Positions 56,103 through 64,000 of a stretch of 64,000 nucleotides of DNA are shown one piece after another (the first letter of the stretch is position 1; every line of letters begins with the position of its first letter). Origin of the DNA: Simplicispira suum (GTDB taxonomy: Bacteria; Pseudomonadota; Gammaproteobacteria; Burkholderiales; Burkholderiaceae_C); the NCBI RefSeq assembly GCF_003008595.1, contig NZ_CP027669.1:1736001-1800000 (forward strand), given 5' to 3'. The notes beneath the pieces were generated by a model. The model ran no database searches, was not told the DNA's origin, and saw nothing but the letters and a program-made list of their open reading frames with translations. A program made the translations under genes and the position numbers.

Positions 56103-57509
56103 TCATTCACCGTCCGAAATCCCCGCCTGCTTGAGCTCGGCAAATTTGGCCGCCATCGTCGGGTTGCCGCGTGTCAGCTTCTTGATGGTCAGGTCTTCGG
56201 CCTTGTCGTTGGCCAGGCGCAAGTTGTTGGCCGACTTGTGCAGCGCCTCCTTGGTCTTCTCCAGGTCCTTGATGGCCTCGTCGATGCGCCGAACCGCCTC
56301 CTCGAACCCGTCCGACGCCAGGCGCCAGTTGCGCCCGAAGGCGCCCTTGAACTCGTCGAGCTGCGTCTCGAACCGGGTGATGTCCAGGTTTTGCGCCTTC
56401 ACCAGCGCCAGCTCCGACTTGTACTGCAGCGACTTCATCGCCGCGTTGCGCAGCAGCGTGATGATGGGGATGAAGAACTGCGGCCGCACCACGTACATCT
56501 TGGGGTGGCGGTGCGACATGTCCACGATGCCCGTGTACAGCTCGCTCTCGGGCTCCAGCAGCGACACCAGCACCGCATATTCGCAGCCTTTTTCGGTGCG
56601 GTCCTTGTCCAGCTCTTTCAAGAAGTCTTCGTTGCGCTTCTTGGTGGCGGTCTGGTCGCTCTCGTTCTTCATCTCGAACATGATGGAGACGATTTCGTTG
56701 CCCGACTCGTCCAGGTCGCGAAAGATGTAGTCGCCCTTGCTGCCGCTGCGTGCGTCGTTGTCTTTCTCGAAATACGCGTGCGCAAAAGCCGTGGCGCGGA
56801 TGCGGTTGAACTCCGTCTCGCAGTGCTGCTCCAGCGTCTCGCCCACCATCTTGGTCGACAGGCGCGCCTTCATGTCCCTGAGGCGCGCAATCTCGCCGTC
56901 GCGGTCACGCAGCTGCAAGGCGTGCTGCTCCTTGATGGCGGCCTCCTCCAGCTGCTTCTTCACCACCGCCAGGTTCAGGTCGTTCTTGAGCTCATCGCGC
57001 TCCCGCACCACCACCGCGACCGCCTCGGACACCGCCAGCCTGCGCGCCACCTCGCCCGCCTCCAGCTGCGACCTCAGCCGCTCGATCTCGGCGTCCTTTT
57101 GCGCGGCCACACCTTGCAGCTCCTGCGCCAGCCGCGCTTGTGCCAACTGGTCCGCCGCCTGCTGCGCCGCCCGCGCACGTTCCAGTTCATGGGCCAGCGC
57201 ATCGCGCTGCTTTTCCACCGCGCTCAGGGCCTGCGCCACCGCCAGATCGCGCTCCACCGCGCCCGCATCCAACCGGGCCTTCAGGGCCTGAATCTCGGTG
57301 TCCTTGGCGGCCGCCGCCTTCTGCAGCGCATGGGCCACCTGGGCCTCGGCCAGCGCCACCGCATTGCGCTTGTCCTGCTCGGCCAGCTCCAGCCGCTCGT
57401 GCAACTGCGCGTGGAAATCCGCGTCGCGCACCTGCTTGAGGATGTCGGCATAGCCGGTTTCGTCCACCTTGAACGCCTTGTTGCAGTGGGGGCAGATGAT
57501 GTCGTGCAT
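56103..57509 (-). CDS. DUF2130 family protein: zinc-ribbon, long coiled coil and nuclease-like domain
   Basis: 468 residues. It begins with a short CPHCN zinc-ribbon half ([16 protein letters not shown]). Then comes a long Ala/Glu/Lys/Gln-rich coiled coil (about residues 30-200). A C-terminal domain contains [10 protein letters not shown] and [10 protein letters not shown], fitting the D...E-X-K pattern of PD-(D/E)XK nucleases. Function unproven; the layout recalls DNA repair or anti-mobile-element nucleases with a coiled-coil spacer. It lies just upstream of the Fic/SIR2-HerA accessory region. Confidence 0.83.
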
Positions 57510-57600
57510 GGCGGTCACCGTGGGTCGTGTTTCGTTGGTGGGGGAGCATAGCGGGCAGGGATGCGCCATGGGCGGTGGGCCGCCGCCAGCGTGGGGCGAG

Positions 57601-57647: not shown

Positions 57648-59084
57648 TCAGCCCTGCACCCGCACTTTCCACGCAGCGAACTCTGATGGACGCAGGCCGT
57701 AGCGTGCCAATACGCCCTCATGCAGGCGGCGCAGTTCATCCACGATGACGGCCTGCACGGCCGCGCGGTCCGGCTCGGGCACGCGGGCGGCCACGGCGTG
57801 GGCAATCACGGTCAGCGCCTCATCCTGCGGGTGCGTCACCACCGCGTGGATTGTCTGCTTGACTACGTCGCGGTAGGCGAGGCGAATCGGGTCGGGCTCG
57901 GCCAAGTCTTGCTTGATGGCCAGGTATTCCTGCGTGGAGCGCTCGTAGGCCCACACGAACACATCGCGCAGCAGCTCCACCCGCGTCAACTCATACACGC
58001 CCAAAATTGCGCGGCTGTAGGCCGCCTCGGGTACGTCCAAAAAGGTCAGCGGGCACAGGTTGGCGCGAAACAGCGGCACATTGGCCGCCAGGCGCGACGT
58101 GCGCTTGTTGATATCTGCAAAAGGCTGCAGGTACGGCACATGCACCAGCATGAAAAACGCCTGCTCGAATGGGTCGGCAATCTGGCGCGCCTTGGTGAGC
58201 AGCATGTCCAGCGCATCGTCAATCTGCTGCGGCACCGCCAACGGGCGGAACACGCTGTGGCCAATCTCTACGATGTGCTGGCGCACTCGCCCCTCATCCG
58301 CCGGGTTGGGCAACAGGTTTTCAGACAGCGCCGCGTGCAGGTTCATCAGCGTGTAGCGGTCAAACTCGGCCATTGCTGCACCGCCTTGCCCAGCCAAATT
58401 TCCGGCGCTTTGCACGTTCTCCACCAACAACTCAATGGCAGTCTTGTGGTTCAGGATCATCTGCGTCTCTGACGCTGCCTTGCCCTGCGCCGCCTGCCCA
58501 TGCTCGATGAGCGCCCGCGTGTCGAGCCGCGAATAGGTATTGCCCTCCAACTGGCTGGACGCCCACGACAGATCAATCAGCAGGCGATTCAAAATCGCCC
58601 GGCTGTAAGTGCCAGCCGGCGCGCCCGCCTGGGCGGTGTGGCCCATGTTGTGCAACTGGCGGCGCAGCGGTGCGGGCAAATACCAGCTCACATTGGGTTG
58701 GTACGACGCCAAAAAATCGTGCTGGTAGCCCACTGGCTTGCGCGCCGCCAGCGGCTGATCGACATAAGCCTGTACATCGCGGCTGTCGGCAGACAAAGGG
58801 ATGGCGGCGGGAAAGCCATCGCCCTTTTCAGCATGCCCGCTGGTTGGCGCCACCAGCGGCAGGGCAGCACCGGGCAGATACCGCCGCGCCCGCGCTGCGC
58901 CCAGCGCCACGATGCGCCCGTCTGCCACCGCCTGCCCCAGCCAGCGCTGGGCCGTGCGGCGTGCCACCGCCGGGTGCAGCGCCAGTAGCTCGGCCAAGGT
59001 CAAACCGGTTGGCGTGTTCTGAATGCTTTGCAGCAAATCGGTGGCGCGCAATGGCGCTGCGAGTGGCGCGATTTTTGAGATCAT
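57648..59084 (-). CDS. Fic family protein lacking the catalytic His, with N-terminal winged helix
   Basis: 478 residues. An N-terminal winged helix (LTLAELLALHPAVARRTAQRWL) is followed by a Fic domain. The active-site loop reads LQPFADINKRTSR (about 320-331): the family HPFxDGNxR motif with Gln in place of the catalytic His. The inhibitory [ST]xxxE[GN] motif is present as SSQLEGN (176-182). This Gln form recurs in a known Fic subgroup, so it need not be a recent loss, but AMP transfer by the normal mechanism is unlikely. Direct repeats TGGCGCGATT cover its start, suggesting self-regulation. Confidence 0.85.
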   Translation of the reverse strand: MISKIAPLAAPLRATDLLQSIQNTPTGLTLAELLALHPAVARRTAQRWLGQAVADGRIVALGAARARRYLPGAALPLVAPTSGHAEKGDGFPAAIPLSADSRDVQAYVDQPLAARKPVGYQHDFLASYQPNVSWYLPAPLRRQLHNMGHTAQAGAPAGTYSRAILNRLLIDLSWASSQLEGNTYSRLDTRALIEHGQAAQGKAASETQMILNHKTAIELLVENVQSAGNLAGQGGAAMAEFDRYTLMNLHAALSENLLPNPADEGRVRQHIVEIGHSVFRPLAVPQQIDDALDMLLTKARQIADPFEQAFFMLVHVPYLQPFADINKRTSRLAANVPLFRANLCPLTFLDVPEAAYSRAILGVYELTRVELLRDVFVWAYERSTQEYLAIKQDLAEPDPIRLAYRDVVKQTIHAVVTHPQDEALTVIAHAVAARVPEPDRAAVQAVIVDELRRLHEGVLARYGLRPSEFAAWKVRVQG

Positions 59085-59135
59085 GGCGCGATTTTGGCGC
59101 GATTGACTGAATTGCGCCAGTGTGTTGGCGCGATC
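59042..59135. promoter_or_regulatory. TGGCGCGATT iterons at the start of the first Fic gene
   Basis: Direct copies TGGCGCGATT at 59064, 59084 and 59095, TGGCGCGATC at 59126, and an inverted copy AATTGCGCCA at 59110-59119. Shorter matches lie at 59042 and 59052. They surround the ATG (59082-59084 on the minus strand). The protein's own winged helix is the obvious binding candidate. Confidence 0.72.
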
Positions 59136-59424
59136 AGCCGTTGGAAAGCAAATTGGGCCAAATCGGCGGCAAGCCACCTGCAGCGCGAGCGCAAACAGTA
59201 TTCGGCGCCAGGTGTCGACACAGCCCTGCGACTTCAAGTCCCTGCCCGGCATGAGCGACCGGAGCGCCACCAATGCACTGGGCCAACGGGTCAAGCGCGG
59301 CCCGCTCCAATCCGACGCGACACAAGGCAAGATGCGCTTCGGCTTGCCGCAGCATGCGCGGCGCTTTATGTTTCCGCAGCTGTGGCCCCGAGGCGGAGGT
59401 GGATTCGGCCAATATTTGATAGCC

Positions 59425-59472
59425 AAATCGTCCTCCAGCGCTTACTGAATAGGCGCTAGTAGCTATCAAAAA
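59425..59472 (-). repeat. repeat A copy
   Basis: CAAATCGTCCTCCAGCGC, TTACTGAATAGGCGCTAGTA, GCTATCAAAA. Well-preserved minus-orientation copy about 90 bases before the second Fic gene. Confidence 0.82.
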
Positions 59473-59537
59473 TAAAGCAAAATTAGCTTGTACATCTGCA
59501 TTTGGGCCTACTTGCGGCGGTATTCACCGCACATCAA

Positions 59538-59564
59538 GCGGCGAATAATCCGCATAATCGCCGC
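59538..59564 (+). promoter_or_regulatory. palindrome abutting the second Fic start codon
   Basis: GCGGCGA (59538-59544), 13 bases including ATAATCCGC, then TCGCCGC (59558-59564). The right half ends at the base before the ATG. A protein bound here would block ribosome entry or promoter clearance; the gene's own C-terminal helix-turn-helix is the likely binder. Confidence 0.6.
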
Positions 59565-60779
59565 ATGCGCCACCACCGCCCCACCCGCACACCCCGCTAC
59601 ATCTGGCAGTTGTCCGATTGGCCGCACCTTGCTTTTGACGCCGCTGCACTCGCCGCGCCACTGGCCCAGGTGCACCGCGCGCAGGGCATGCTGGCCGGGC
59701 GCATGGCCGAGCTGGGCCTGCCGCAGCGCGACCAGGCCACCCTGCAAGTGCTGACGCAAGAGGTCATCACCACCAGCGCCATTGAGGGCGAGCGGCTGGA
59801 CCTGGACGCCGTGCGCTCCTCTGTGGCCCGCAAACTGGGCCTCGACATTGGGGCCCTGGCCCCCAGCGACCGCCATGTGGACGGCGTGGTGGACGTGGTG
59901 CTGGACGCCACCCGCAACTTTGACCAGCCCCTGACCCCTGAGCGCCTGTTTGGCTGGCATGCGGCGCTGTTCCCCACCGGCTACAGCGGGCGCACGCGCA
60001 TCACCGTGGCCGCGTGGCGCACCGATGCCAGCGGCCCCATGCAAGTGGTGTCCGGCCCCGTGGGGCGGGAGAAGGTGCACTTTGAAGCCCCGCCCGCCGC
60101 CACCCTGCCCGCGCATACCCAGGCCTTCTTTGACTGGTTTGAAACCGCCCCGGCGGGCGACGCCATCATCAAAGCCGGGCTGGCCCACCTGTGGCTGGTT
60201 ACCCTGCACCCGTTTGACGACGGCAACGGCCGCCTGAGCCGCGCCGTGGGCGACATGGCCTTGGCCCGCGCAGAAGGAATGAGTGCCGCCGGGCCGCCCC
60301 AAGGCACGAGCGCCCCCCTGGGGGGCAGCGACCCGCGCAGCGGCGGAGCGTGGGGGCAACATGCACACCAACGCTTCTACAGCTTCAGCGCCCAGATACA
60401 GCGCGAGCGCAAAGACTATTACGACCAGCTAGAGGCCACCCAAAAAGGCCCGCTGGACGTGACCCCGTGGCTGCACTGGTTTCTGGGCTGCCTGCTGCGC
60501 GCCGTGCAGGGCGCAGACGCCACGCTGGCAGGCGTGCTGGACAAGGCCCAGTTCTGGCAGCGCTGGGCAGGCACGCCCATGAACGCGCGGCAAACCCTGG
60601 TGCTGAACCGCGTGCTGGACGGTATGGAGGGCAAGCTGACCAACGCCAAGTGGGCGGCGATGGGCAAATGCTCAGCAGACACGGCGCTGCGGGATATCAA
60701 TGACCTGCTGGAGCGCGGCGTGCTGCGCAGGCTGGAGGGTGGCGGGCGAAGTGTTGGGTACGACTTGTGTGCCAAATAG
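59565..60779 (+). CDS. Fic family protein with intact active site and an in-frame repeat insertion
   Basis: 404 residues. It has the DUF4172-like N-terminus (RYIWQLSDWPHLAFD), the inhibitory motif TTSAIEGE (residues 69-76) and a complete active loop HPFDDGNGRLSR (215-226), so AMPylation of a partner protein is expected. A C-terminal helix-turn-helix is likely. Between RAEG and QRFYSFSAQIQRERKDYYD lies an insertion of about 28 residues (SAAGPPQGTSAPLGGSDPRS..) encoded by a GC-rich palindromic repeat; relatives join these blocks directly. The frame is kept. Whether the insert is tolerated is unknown. Confidence 0.88.
   Translation: MRHHRPTRTPRYIWQLSDWPHLAFDAAALAAPLAQVHRAQGMLAGRMAELGLPQRDQATLQVLTQEVITTSAIEGERLDLDAVRSSVARKLGLDIGALAPSDRHVDGVVDVVLDATRNFDQPLTPERLFGWHAALFPTGYSGRTRITVAAWRTDASGPMQVVSGPVGREKVHFEAPPAATLPAHTQAFFDWFETAPAGDAIIKAGLAHLWLVTLHPFDDGNGRLSRAVGDMALARAEGMSAAGPPQGTSAPLGGSDPRSGGAWGQHAHQRFYSFSAQIQRERKDYYDQLEATQKGPLDVTPWLHWFLGCLLRAVQGADATLAGVLDKAQFWQRWAGTPMNARQTLVLNRVLDGMEGKLTNAKWAAMGKCSADTALRDINDLLERGVLRRLEGGGRSVGYDLCAK
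60279..60365 (+). repeat. palindromic repeat inserted within the Fic coding sequence
   Basis: GCCGGGCCGCCCCAAGGC, ACGAGCGCCCCCCTGGGG, GGCAGCGACCCGCGCAGC, GGCGGAGCGTGGGGGC. The CCCCCCTGGGGGG core is palindromic. This element type is otherwise intergenic in related genomes. Its length is a multiple of three, so translation continues. Confidence 0.72.
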
Positions 60780-60821
60780 GCCGGTAACGCATGTGAGATA
60801 AGCGCAAGAAGCTATCAATAC
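60779..60821 (-). repeat. repeat A copy forming the 5' UTR of the YdeI-like gene
   Basis: GGCCGGTAACGCATGTGAGA, TAAGCGCAAGAAGCTATC, AATAC. It runs from the Fic stop codon to the next ATG, so the YdeI-like gene has no other leader. Confidence 0.68.
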
Positions 60822-61388
60822 ATGAGCAATACCGCGCATCACGCCTTTGAAACGCCAGAACAGCTCAACGCATGGCTGCAGGCAAACCACGCCAGCGAGA
60901 CTGAGCTGTGGGTGCGCATCTTCAAAAAGGCCACCGGCCAGCCCAGCGTGACATGGGACGACTGCGTGGTGGCCGCCATCGCCTGGGGCTGGATCGACGG
61001 GATACGCAAGTCCTTGGACGACACCTCGTTTCTGCAACGCCTCACGCCGCGCCGTGCGCGCTCCAATTGGTCGCAGAAAAACGTGCAGCATGCCGAGCGA
61101 CTGATAGAGCAAGGGCGCATGCAAGCCGCCGGCCTAGTGCATATAGAAGCCGCACGCATCGATGGGCGCTGGGCCACCGCCTACGCCGGCAGCGCCACCA
61201 TGAAGATGCCCGAAGACTTTTTGACGGCGCTGCAACTAGACCCGGCTGCCCACGCTTTCTACGCCACGCTCAAACGCCAGAGCCTATTCACCATCTACCA
61301 CCGGCTGCAGAGTGCCCAGCGGCCGGAAACCCGGGAGAAGCGCATGGCGGAAGTGTTGGCGAAGTTGGGGCGCGGCGAAAGTCCTTGA
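60822..61388 (+). CDS. YdeI/OmpD-associated family protein
   Basis: 188-residue protein of the YdeI/OmdA family, thought to confer some protection against antimicrobial peptides or bacteriocins in enterobacteria. It opens AFETPEQLNAWLQANHASETE, contains the conserved WGWIDGIRKSLDDTSFLQRL and ends TIYHRLQSAQRPETREKRM. It lies 42 bases after the Fic gene with only a repeat A copy between, so it may depend on Fic transcription or on a promoter within the repeat. Confidence 0.84.
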   Translation: MSNTAHHAFETPEQLNAWLQANHASETELWVRIFKKATGQPSVTWDDCVVAAIAWGWIDGIRKSLDDTSFLQRLTPRRARSNWSQKNVQHAERLIEQGRMQAAGLVHIEAARIDGRWATAYAGSATMKMPEDFLTALQLDPAAHAFYATLKRQSLFTIYHRLQSAQRPETREKRMAEVLAKLGRGESP

Positions 61389-61433
61389 AATGTGTCGCCA
61401 GCGTGAGGAACATGCAGACGCTAGATTTGTGAG

Positions 61434-61482
61434 AAAAATTGGTTCATAGCCCTCGTGGAATATGCGTAAGCAGCTATTGAAT
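61434..61482 (-). repeat. decayed repeat A copy
   Basis: AAATTGGTTCATAGCCCTC, TGGAATATGCGTAAGCAGC, TATTGAAT. Family order kept. Lies between the convergent YdeI-like and HerA genes. Confidence 0.6.
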
Positions 61483-61504
61483 ATGCACGGTCAGTACGTC
61501 ACTA

Positions 61505-63262
61505 TCAAATTTGCATCGACTGCTTGCGCCACCCGCTGACTGAATTTTTAACAGCATCGGCTGCATCATCAGCTGCCCAGTGATCCCAGAACTCGACAGT
61601 TCCGCTGTTGGGTTTTTGTTTCGGCTCCGCGATTCGAATTCGCGTAGGAAGGAGACTTGCGTCACCGACGACAAGTGCCTCGCCCGTATCGAGGACCGGC
61701 AGCAAATCACCGAAACTGCCTAAGCTATCCGGTAGCAATCGCTTGACGACTGCCTGATCATCACCATTGGTGAGCCGCATCGCTACCAAGTTATTGCATT
61801 GACTCAGAACGGTTCGATTTACTTCGGATGGACGTTGGCTAATGACAGCTAATCCCACTCCGTATTTACGACCCTCTTTGGCGATTCTCTCGAATATTTC
61901 TATAGATATATCTCCAGCGCCACCAACATCTCGACGTTCAGGAATGTAGAGATGTGCTTCATCACAAAAAATAGCGACTGGGTGTCTTTGGTCGGTGGGA
62001 GTCCACTGTTGTATTGAGAATGCTATTCCAGCGACCAAGCTGACAATAAGTGGGAGGATGTCAGAAGGAACTTCTGAGAAGTCGATGATCTTTACCCCAC
62101 CTTGACTATCTGGTTGATTTTTTGTGCCTGTCAATAAAGTCTTTACGAGAACATCTAACCACTCGAATTTCTGCACCTCCTCTTCCCCGCCAAATAGAAA
62201 TCCAAGACGCCGATCAGTGCGCTTGTTCTCCAGACGTTGAATTAAACGACTGAGTTTTCCATTGAAATCTCCGGCTTTTTCAGTACCAGCTTTTGCGCCT
62301 GGCACCATCTCCACGTTAATCTCACCGAGTCTCTTCAAGACTCCGTCTACACTAAATGGGATTGGGCTATCTATCGTGAAATTTTCAAGAACGTCTTTGT
62401 GACCGCCCTTGGTCAAGTAATCACGTTTTGCCTCAACAATGGTGCGTGACATGATCATTGCTTGATTGGGTGCATTTTGATCACTGCGATCAACAAACAT
62501 CGAGAGCATTGCCTCGTAACCAAGCAGCCAAAACGGCAAATATAAAACGCCATCCGCCAGCGTTTTTTTCTGATCAAGATCACTTGGCCCGGCTATTTTT
62601 AGGTGGCGGATTCCGTTCCCTTTTAACGGACCGTATTCACCGTGAATGTCAAAGACGAGGGCGTTAGCGTTAGGTAGCTCCGCGACTTGCTCCAAAATCC
62701 TTGCAGTTGCCCAAGATTTTCCAGACCCAGTACTGCCAACAATAATTGCGTGGCGTTGAAAGAACTTGTTGCCATTCAAGTAAGCATCAGCCTTTTCATC
62801 CAGGGTGTAGGCCCCAAGAGAAAGCCGTTGTCCATCAGCACTAATGTTACCCACAACGCGCATGAAGTTGGTCAACTGTTCGCCTTCAACCGCAAAGCAA
62901 TTGGCTTCGATTTCTGGGACAGTTTCTAGCGTGCGTGTAAAAACGTTCTCCTTTTTGCCTTGCTTGTCAAAGACGGTGCCAATTAGAGAGATTCTTACCA
63001 AATTTATCTCTGAAGAGATCTCGTCATCTTCATTCTCCCGTGCCAGTAAGTCGGCCTTCTTCTCTTCGATCGCTGTTCGCGTTATTTTTTGAATTAGGCC
63101 TATTAGGTGCTGCCCCGGACGACTGCTTTCCAAAACTGCGAGTCGGTTCACTTGAAGCTTTCTTAGTTTTTCTACATCCTCTACTTGAACTATCACTGTG
63201 GACGTGTCAACTGAGCGAACTTTTCCCAGGCTATCTTTGTCAGCGTAGTCAAAAATTTTCAT
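61505..63262 (-). CDS. HerA-like ATPase of a SIR2-HerA defence pair
   Basis: 585-residue FtsK/HerA-type hexameric DNA translocase. An N-terminal HAS-like barrel (about 1-150) is followed by Walker A GSTGSGKS (176-183), a motor core, Walker B IFCDEAH (431-437) and the VISQRPSEVNRTVLSQCNN block of HerA proteins. In SIR2-HerA systems the ATPase assembles with the SIR2 NADase and senses phage DNA. The start overlaps the SIR2 stop (ATGA). The region is clearly more AT-rich than the chromosome around it, a sign of transfer. Confidence 0.86.
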   Translation of the reverse strand: MKIFDYADKDSLGKVRSVDTSTVIVQVEDVEKLRKLQVNRLAVLESSRPGQHLIGLIQKITRTAIEEKKADLLARENEDDEISSEINLVRISLIGTVFDKQGKKENVFTRTLETVPEIEANCFAVEGEQLTNFMRVVGNISADGQRLSLGAYTLDEKADAYLNGNKFFQRHAIIVGSTGSGKSWATARILEQVAELPNANALVFDIHGEYGPLKGNGIRHLKIAGPSDLDQKKTLADGVLYLPFWLLGYEAMLSMFVDRSDQNAPNQAMIMSRTIVEAKRDYLTKGGHKDVLENFTIDSPIPFSVDGVLKRLGEINVEMVPGAKAGTEKAGDFNGKLSRLIQRLENKRTDRRLGFLFGGEEEVQKFEWLDVLVKTLLTGTKNQPDSQGGVKIIDFSEVPSDILPLIVSLVAGIAFSIQQWTPTDQRHPVAIFCDEAHLYIPERRDVGGAGDISIEIFERIAKEGRKYGVGLAVISQRPSEVNRTVLSQCNNLVAMRLTNGDDQAVVKRLLPDSLGSFGDLLPVLDTGEALVVGDASLLPTRIRIAEPKQKPNSGTVEFWDHWAADDAADAVKNSVSGWRKQSMQI

Positions 63263-64000
63263 GTAATCACCATCGTTAGAAATTTATCAAGGGACCAAAG
63301 GCTCTGACCGGGAATGTCGACGCCATCTGGAAATGTCGTTGAGTACAGGCGACAGCCGGTGCCACTCTCTTCTAAGGCCATGTAATGCTTACATTGACCA
63401 CTCTTTAAGAATGCTTTAGCTGTTGGAGTAATTTCCTTTGTGATTAGCACGAGCGGTACAGGCTCGGCCCTACACCTTTCAACAAGTTTGGTCTGCATAT
63501 GAGGATCGTTGAACCCATAGCCCACACAAAAATATGCCCGAGCAGATTGCAATGCCAGATCTGCCCCTTGCTTGATAGACAGGAATGGCTCATCGTGGGT
63601 TAGACGATATTTTTCAATACCCGGCGTCACTATCACGGGCTCAAGATCTGCGGGACGTCTTCCTGTACCTGGCAAAGCCATGACCACACCCGCTTTGTCC
63701 CTAAACCAATCGAAAGAGCCGTGGACCTTCCAAACGTTCACCGTGCGCGCCACTGTCTTTCCAAGGTAGATCTTTGGCAACGACTCCTTGGTACGCAATC
63801 GGAGATGACCGTATCCAAAACCCGTGTAATGGCAGATTTCCCCAGCATCGGCGGCGTACTCTGCGAGGAGGTCGTAGTTTGGGGTTACGACGTCAATGGA
63901 GTTGTGAATACTGGCAAATAAGTGTCTGAAGAGTCGTGTCAAGGGAAAAAGAGTTCTGTCTTCCAACAATTTTTCAAAAACAGAAGCATCTGATGGCGCA
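63259..64000 (-). CDS. SIR2-like NADase of a SIR2-HerA defence pair, partial
   Basis: C-terminal part of a SIR2-type protein; the frame is open to the window edge, so the N-terminus and NAD-binding Gly motif lie outside. The catalytic-type Asn-Tyr-Asp is in DVVTPNYDLLAEYAADAG and the catalytic His in VWKVHGSFDWFRD. YFCVGYGFNDPHMQTKLVERC is the conserved late block of the family. Such proteins deplete NAD+ on infection. It is translationally coupled to herA. AT-rich like its partner. Confidence 0.82.
   Translation of the reverse strand, partial: APSDASVFEKLLEDRTLFPLTRLFRHLFASIHNSIDVVTPNYDLLAEYAADAGEICHYTGFGYGHLRLRTKESLPKIYLGKTVARTVNVWKVHGSFDWFRDKAGVVMALPGTGRRPADLEPVIVTPGIEKYRLTHDEPFLSIKQGADLALQSARAYFCVGYGFNDPHMQTKLVERCRAEPVPLVLITKEITPTAKAFLKSGQCKHYMALEESGTGCRLYSTTFPDGVDIPGQSLWSLDKFLTMVIT

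Follow-up and report, generated by a model that had tools for sequence, protein, structure and literature searches.

The antiphage system formed by SIR2 and HerA is described in two published accounts, in which the two proteins make a large complex that degrades NAD+ upon infection (PMC11263360, PMC10952713). The second of these also lists NERD domains for Mokosh type I and Nhi-like systems. The core defence hotspots cDHS1/2 of Pseudomonas aeruginosa carry exchangeable defence systems between fixed flanking genes (PMC10250203). The locus considered here lies at the right end of a stretch of Simplicispira suum DNA (contig NZ_CP027669.1, positions 1,736,001 to 1,800,000), which is called the window at its full length of 64,000 nucleotides and whose genome is labelled G000 in comparisons. 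A SIR2-HerA pair has probably landed there recently, directly behind a resident gene in which a NERD nuclease domain is fused to a UvrD-type helicase (NERD-UvrD), and the same position in many related bacteria holds a different defence system. The locus is thereby like cDHS1/2, but differs from those hotspots in that it is mostly a small slot 3' of a nuclease-helicase gene, is found across genera of one family, and has DUF2130 as a recurrent downstream gene. It is likely that the pair was acquired as defence cargo of a hotspot that is specific to the lineage and anchored on the resident NERD-UvrD gene, and that the Fic genes nearby are neighbours, not components. No account of this slot was found among the matches listed for NERD, helicase and defence literature or for literature on hotspots of the family.

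The pair shares with the described system adjacent, overlapping genes, matching PADLOC models and intact catalytic and Walker motifs; it differs in nothing basic and represents a diverged subtype in this genomic place. HerA and SIR2 overlap by 4 bp on the minus strand, in keeping with an earlier note on this DNA that had called them coupled. SIR2 carries TPNYD at 138 and HG at 192, and the catalytic N and H are kept in all 41 SIR2 relatives aligned from 43 loci. HerA has a Walker A motif, GSTGSGKS, at 176 and a Walker B motif, IFCDE, at 431, and it matches the PDB group 8j4u/8uaf (5.6e-30). Identity to relatives is mostly ∼40% for SIR2 and 61-67% for HerA, with the exception of one locus, L002, at which HerA is 97% identical. 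Both proteins miss the NCBIfam cut-offs for antiphage equivalogs (HerA 285.6 of 850 bits, SIR2 24.1 of 500 bits); because the PADLOC models do match, the NCBIfam models are taken to describe other subtypes. Family membership, with the PADLOC scores given in the table, backs the predicted antiphage role that the note had named, and by analogy with the published system the pair would most likely degrade NAD+ on infection. A HerA search at 1e-3 in 40 genomes, the pair's own included, gave six matches; the other five are weak or diverged, the closest being a protein with 38% identity on a different contig in G013. Stretches fetched from same-genus relatives yielded no SIR2 or HerA.

Base composition sets the pair apart from its surroundings. 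The guanine-cytosine (GC) content is 0.470 for HerA and 0.495 for SIR2, with values at third codon positions (GC3) of 0.449 and 0.486, against a GC of 0.60-0.70 in the ten neighbours measured. FicA, FicB, YdeI, DUF2130 and NERD-UvrD have a GC of 0.63-0.69 and a GC3 of 0.77-0.90, and the Fic, YdeI and DUF2130 genes look native by composition. From the contrast in GC and GC3 it follows that the foreign module consists of two genes only, a block of ∼2.8 kb. On one side the YdeI stop is 116 bp off; on the other, the likely SIR2 start, a TTG preceded by the ribosome site AGGAG, lies 22 bp past the NERD-UvrD stop codon. The earlier note had ascribed a lower GC to an island spanning 57.6-64 kb, which is real for HerA and SIR2 and not for the whole interval. 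It had also placed the island end past 64 kb; the low-GC block does reach ∼64.3 kb but stops there, at NERD-UvrD. Similarity to relatives of the same genus breaks off nearby, inside YdeI for G007 and G013 and ahead of YdeI for G004 and G012. The YdeI protein is matched only in its first part, residues 1-89 in G007 and 1-110 in G013.

In three of these relatives, G007, G012 and G013, NERD-UvrD stands at the same place, but the genes behind it are different. G012 carries a PDC-S06 ATPase (1.4e-303) followed by DUF2130, G013 an AAA_15/AriA-like ATPase with a GC of 0.415, and G007 a 1266-aa protein of no recognised family with a GC of 0.53; a fourth genome of the genus, G006, carries PDC-S05 behind NERD. 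The 1266-aa protein (L085:11089-14889) has no Pfam, PADLOC (1e-3) or NCBIfam match and is a candidate new defence protein. A clean empty NERD-YdeI junction was not seen among the relatives. G004, which lacks both NERD-UvrD and SIR2-HerA, holds other genes there (L084:9024-10775), one of low GC that encodes a 289-aa DUF6731 protein and one for a protein of 160 aa, which are perhaps further cargo.

Across the family, SIR2-HerA itself occupies the slot in three subtypes, in G000, in G196 (SIR2 PDLC04094) and in G514 (SIR2 PDLC04080, HerA PDLC04097); G682 matches the G196 pair at 50-51%. The remaining cargo includes OLD (G791, and as second gene in G319), PDC-S06 (G012, G516), PD-T4-1 (G626), Lamassu LmuA with LmuB (G551), ApeA (G756), MTase_II (G758), type I restriction-modification subunits (G651), and PDC-S37 on the opposite strand (G435). 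Of 24 family loci that were selected because their cargo was GC-poor or on the same strand, and were each scanned separately, 15 gave a PADLOC match at 1e-15 or better. Nine gave none at that threshold (G007, G118, G492a, G530, G537, G622, G684, G755, G803), although G118 shows a weak AriA match (1.9e-8). The cargo without a PADLOC match at 1e-15 includes a 667-aa protein in G530 and an 865-aa protein in G622. The latter (L221:4462-7059) is separated from the NERD gene upstream by one gene, precedes DUF2130, and has weak similarity to HSP90/sacsin-type ATPases. Three unknown cargo proteins were compared with NCBIfam, and none is above a cut-off. Different genera carry cargo genes that are not related to each other, which suggests that exchange took place repeatedly and independently; relatives share the same flanking gene and differ in defence content, as expected of a hotspot.

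The asymmetry of the slot was quantified in 63 NERD-UvrD loci from 62 family genomes, in which genes were called by a simple open reading frame script that may err in GC-rich DNA. Sixteen of the 73 family matches had been left out: three with a contig end directly downstream (G728, G675, G578), three partial matches (G470, G533, G605) and ten diverged at 44-49% identity. Flanks longer than 2 kb on either side were available for 59 loci; in 32 of these, GC falls by more than 5 points from the 3 kb upstream to the 3 kb downstream, and the reverse holds in five (Wilcoxon p=6e-7). Nearest genes were counted in 61 loci, as G012 and G797 have no neighbour. A nearest gene more than 7 GC points below NERD is found downstream in 26 of 61 and upstream in 4 of 61 (Fisher p=5e-6); 21 of the 26 are co-directional with NERD and 19 lie within 160 bp. 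Over all the loci, a gene that runs in the direction of NERD and is no more than 160 bp away occurs downstream in 32 and upstream in 14 (p=0.001). With a threshold of 1e-15, the genes nearest downstream hit 178 PADLOC models and those nearest upstream 29, counts that are inflated by redundant models and give no total of matching members.

The coordinates of the features are collected below.

Table. Features at the right end of the window (window numbering)
Feature	Position	Strand	Motif, match or method	Remark
DUF2130	56103-57569	minus	PF09903 4.2e-85; GDYIF...FEMKN	
FicA	57648-59084	minus	Fic fold, catalytic His replaced by Gln	resident neighbour; same place in G004
FicB (DUF4172+Fic)	59565-60779 (alternative start 59502)	plus	HPFDDGNGR	resident neighbour
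Dispersed repeat inserted in FicB	60280-60363	plus		84 bp, in frame
YdeI/OmdA	60822-61388	plus	PF13376	resident neighbour
Left border of low-GC module	61389-61504		per-gene GC and 250-bp profile	between YdeI stop and HerA stop
HerA/DUF87 ATPase	61505-63262	minus	PADLOC HerA PDLC04105 2e-244	
SIR2 (SIR2_2), NADase-type	63259-64296	minus	PADLOC SIR2 PDLC04087 3.2e-124 (whole gene)	runs past window end
NERD-UvrD	64319-66136 (G000:C1:1800319-1802136)	minus		just outside window

The anchor gene belongs to PADLOC family C3a187 (2.5e-158), and its NERD and helicase motifs are intact. It also matches GajB models at 1.5e-22. Gabija consists of GajA, an OLD-type nuclease, and GajB, a UvrD helicase. The likeness to Gabija extends to loci in which the UvrD-type helicase gene stands beside OLD or ATPase cargo; the differences are that the C3a187 match to NERD plus UvrD is far better, that the cargo varies, and that no GajA gene adjoins NERD-UvrD in this genome, where it is flanked by SIR2 and, at its other end, by a 579-aa frame that has no Pfam match. 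NERD-UvrD was also considered as a general partner of SIR2-HerA and ruled out: among 43 SIR2-HerA loci elsewhere there are no clear cases of NERD-UvrD (one short UvrD match, L027), which argues that it is not an obligatory partner.

The earlier note had named two Fic genes, a YdeI/OmdA gene, the HerA/SIR2 pair and DUF2130, all of which are present where it had put them, and had read the 57.6-64 kb interval as a defence or conflict island in which the Fic genes might be partners of SIR2-HerA. Its description of the Fic genes themselves is borne out. The Fic motif of FicA is QPFADINKR, in which Gln stands where the catalytic His would be, and FicB is divergent from FicA and has an intact motif. 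The Gln form is printed in nine of the 12 FicA loci fetched in the genus, the window's own included; L101 and L103 show no motif, and the one motif printed for L104 is of the FicB type and lies on the opposite strand. On these sequences the missing His is a subfamily trait. The role given to the Fic genes does not hold at this locus. FicB has counterparts with 88-93% identity in G004, G007, G012 and G013, and stands beside DUF1993 in G004, G007 and G012 and also by hom in G007, shared neighbours that mark the same chromosomal place; in G013 it adjoins YdeI and NERD-UvrD. FicA is also present in G004, one of the four, and is divergent from FicB as here. The SIR2-HerA pair is absent at that place in all four relatives, the very situation in which, by the note's own account, the Fic genes would be ordinary neighbours. 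Together with their native GC3 (0.79-0.84 against 0.45-0.49 for HerA and SIR2), this led to the rejection of the Fic genes as partners at this locus. FicB is, moreover, on the other strand, and FicB and YdeI stand between FicA and the pair.

A partnership between Fic proteins and SIR2-HerA finds some favour elsewhere. The note had proposed looking for Fic genes near SIR2-HerA above chance, and they do occur at five or six of 41 loci against 0.33 expected from 90 Fic genes in 40 genomes (Poisson 3e-5 for five), although L008 and L009 represent one common arrangement and L002 is the near relative of the window. These are five of the 43 loci in the public genome set (L002, L005, L008, L009, L038) and a sixth, L039, with a looser motif; the expectation was computed for 41, with the short contigs L020 and L033 left out. 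The excess is in line with the tendency of defence genes to cluster, and a Fic partner is conceivable at some SIR2-HerA loci other than this one; as an account of the window, a single island with Fic partners is highly improbable. In L005, L008 and L009 the Fic gene lies ∼0.1-0.5 kb upstream of SIR2 on the same strand, a possible three-gene arrangement; the SIR2 match of L005 is in two pieces. FicB resembles defence-associated Fic proteins in matching the PADLOC SoFic model (8.2e-33) but differs in falling below the NCBIfam SoFic equivalog cut-off (18.7 of 550 bits) and in showing no sign of defence at this place. The GC-rich repeat in FicB is inserted ∼15 residues past the Fic motif, is shared with G004 and absent from G007, G012 and G013, and is found at nine places in its own genome, the FicB copy included; peptides resembling it occur in other open frames of the genus.

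The second recurrent gene of the locus, DUF2130, had been credited in the earlier note with a nuclease-like motif; it carries GDYIF...FEMKN, which we take to be compatible with a PD-(D/E)XK nuclease. Its fold model is too poor for use (mean predicted local distance difference test score 61.7, below 50 across most of residues 270-398), a PDB profile search gave no relative beyond coiled-coil noise, and the protein itself has no PADLOC matches. Among the matches listed for DUF2130 in the literature, no title concerns phage defence. Its gene is carried by 15 of the 62 NERD genomes. In eight of the 15 (G000, G012, G196, G319, G435, G544, G622, G758) the gene follows NERD on the same strand at a distance of no more than 10 kb, which is 6.75 kb in this genome; two more within 18 kb, ∼10 kb upstream in G651 and ∼17 kb downstream on the other strand in G601, bring the total to 10 of 15. 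By our own arithmetic, with about one DUF2130 gene in every 4-5 Mb, the number of such cases expected by chance is well below one. In G319, DUF2130 is 2 bp behind OLD. On plasmids it is found in operon-like runs, directly upstream of a DUF4297-DUF87 (HerA-type) pair or between an ATP-dependent endonuclease and a methyltransferase; of six plasmid records viewed out of 53, H1, H4, H6 and H9 have defence-like neighbours and H7 and H22 none evident. Outside the family, across the class, 20 loci were fetched and 17 had a called gene; at these 17 loci, for which there is no random control, 56 neighbours gave hits to a total of 128 PADLOC models, including those for PDC-S06, IetAS, type I restriction and OLD/GajA, and other neighbours look ordinary. 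A second, diverged SIR2-HerA pair at L025:17076-21514 has DUF2130 close upstream, all on one strand.

These arrangements, the operon-like spacing at many loci and the intact NERD and helicase motifs raise the idea that NERD-UvrD and DUF2130 have a shared defence role that has gone unrecognised, in which they frame a bay of swapped cores and support whichever is present. The two would then act as accessory nucleases that cut or process phage DNA together with the core between them, as one modular system. Both the shared role and the single modular system are doubtful, as SIR2-HerA occurs elsewhere without NERD, many NERD-UvrD genes have no such cargo, and in this window Fic and YdeI genes stand between DUF2130 and the cargo. 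A slightly better, though still unlikely, account is that NERD-UvrD is a stand-alone defence gene in ordinary islands and owes its defence neighbours to island clustering. It would fit the C3a187 entry in PADLOC, the presence of NERD domains in Mokosh type I and Nhi-like systems as listed in PMC10952713, and the upstream PADLOC matches among the 61 loci (DpdF 3, PDC-S02 2, PD_DExK 2, SoFic 2). The effect is, however, one-sided, with GC-poor and defence-like genes mainly downstream.

Several observations weigh against an exchange slot anchored on NERD-UvrD. The gene is patchy, with matches in 73 of 399 family genomes sampled (at 1e-150), six of 26 genus genomes (1e-40) and 33 of 399 genomes of the order (1e-60). 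No GC drop of the kind described is seen in 27 of the 59 loci, and NERD and its nearest gene share a direction in 43 of 61 cases downstream and 38 of 61 upstream, so that orientation alone says little. To these are added the selective choice of the 24 scanned loci, the redundancy of the PADLOC models and the 43 SIR2-HerA loci without a clear NERD-UvrD. Outside the family, a GC-poor, same-strand gene directly downstream is obvious in only three of 26 loci viewed (G404, G293, G388), and scanning these gave Hachiman HamAB behind NERD in G404, a recombinase in G293 and no match in G388. Plasmid relatives of NERD (below 60% identity) have no such cargo in the four of 18 records viewed. In the plasmid record H30, a methylase gene lies near a NERD relative on the other strand.

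The reading of SIR2-HerA as acquired cargo remains the preferred one. The resident NERD-UvrD gene would act as the anchor, with defence modules exchanged behind its stop codon, perhaps through homologous recombination in the common flanks. A DUF2130 gene comes next in part of the family, and the chromosomal flank is made up of YdeI, FicB, DUF1993 and hom. The same strand and a spacing of up to 160 bp at many loci suggest that the cargo may be co-transcribed with NERD.

For the family, known defence systems and proteins without a PADLOC family both lie behind one gene, and their position behind NERD-UvrD nominates the unmatched cargo proteins as candidate defence systems. The view that the Fic genes of this locus are partners of SIR2-HerA is corrected, and DUF2130 becomes a testable accessory of defence operons.

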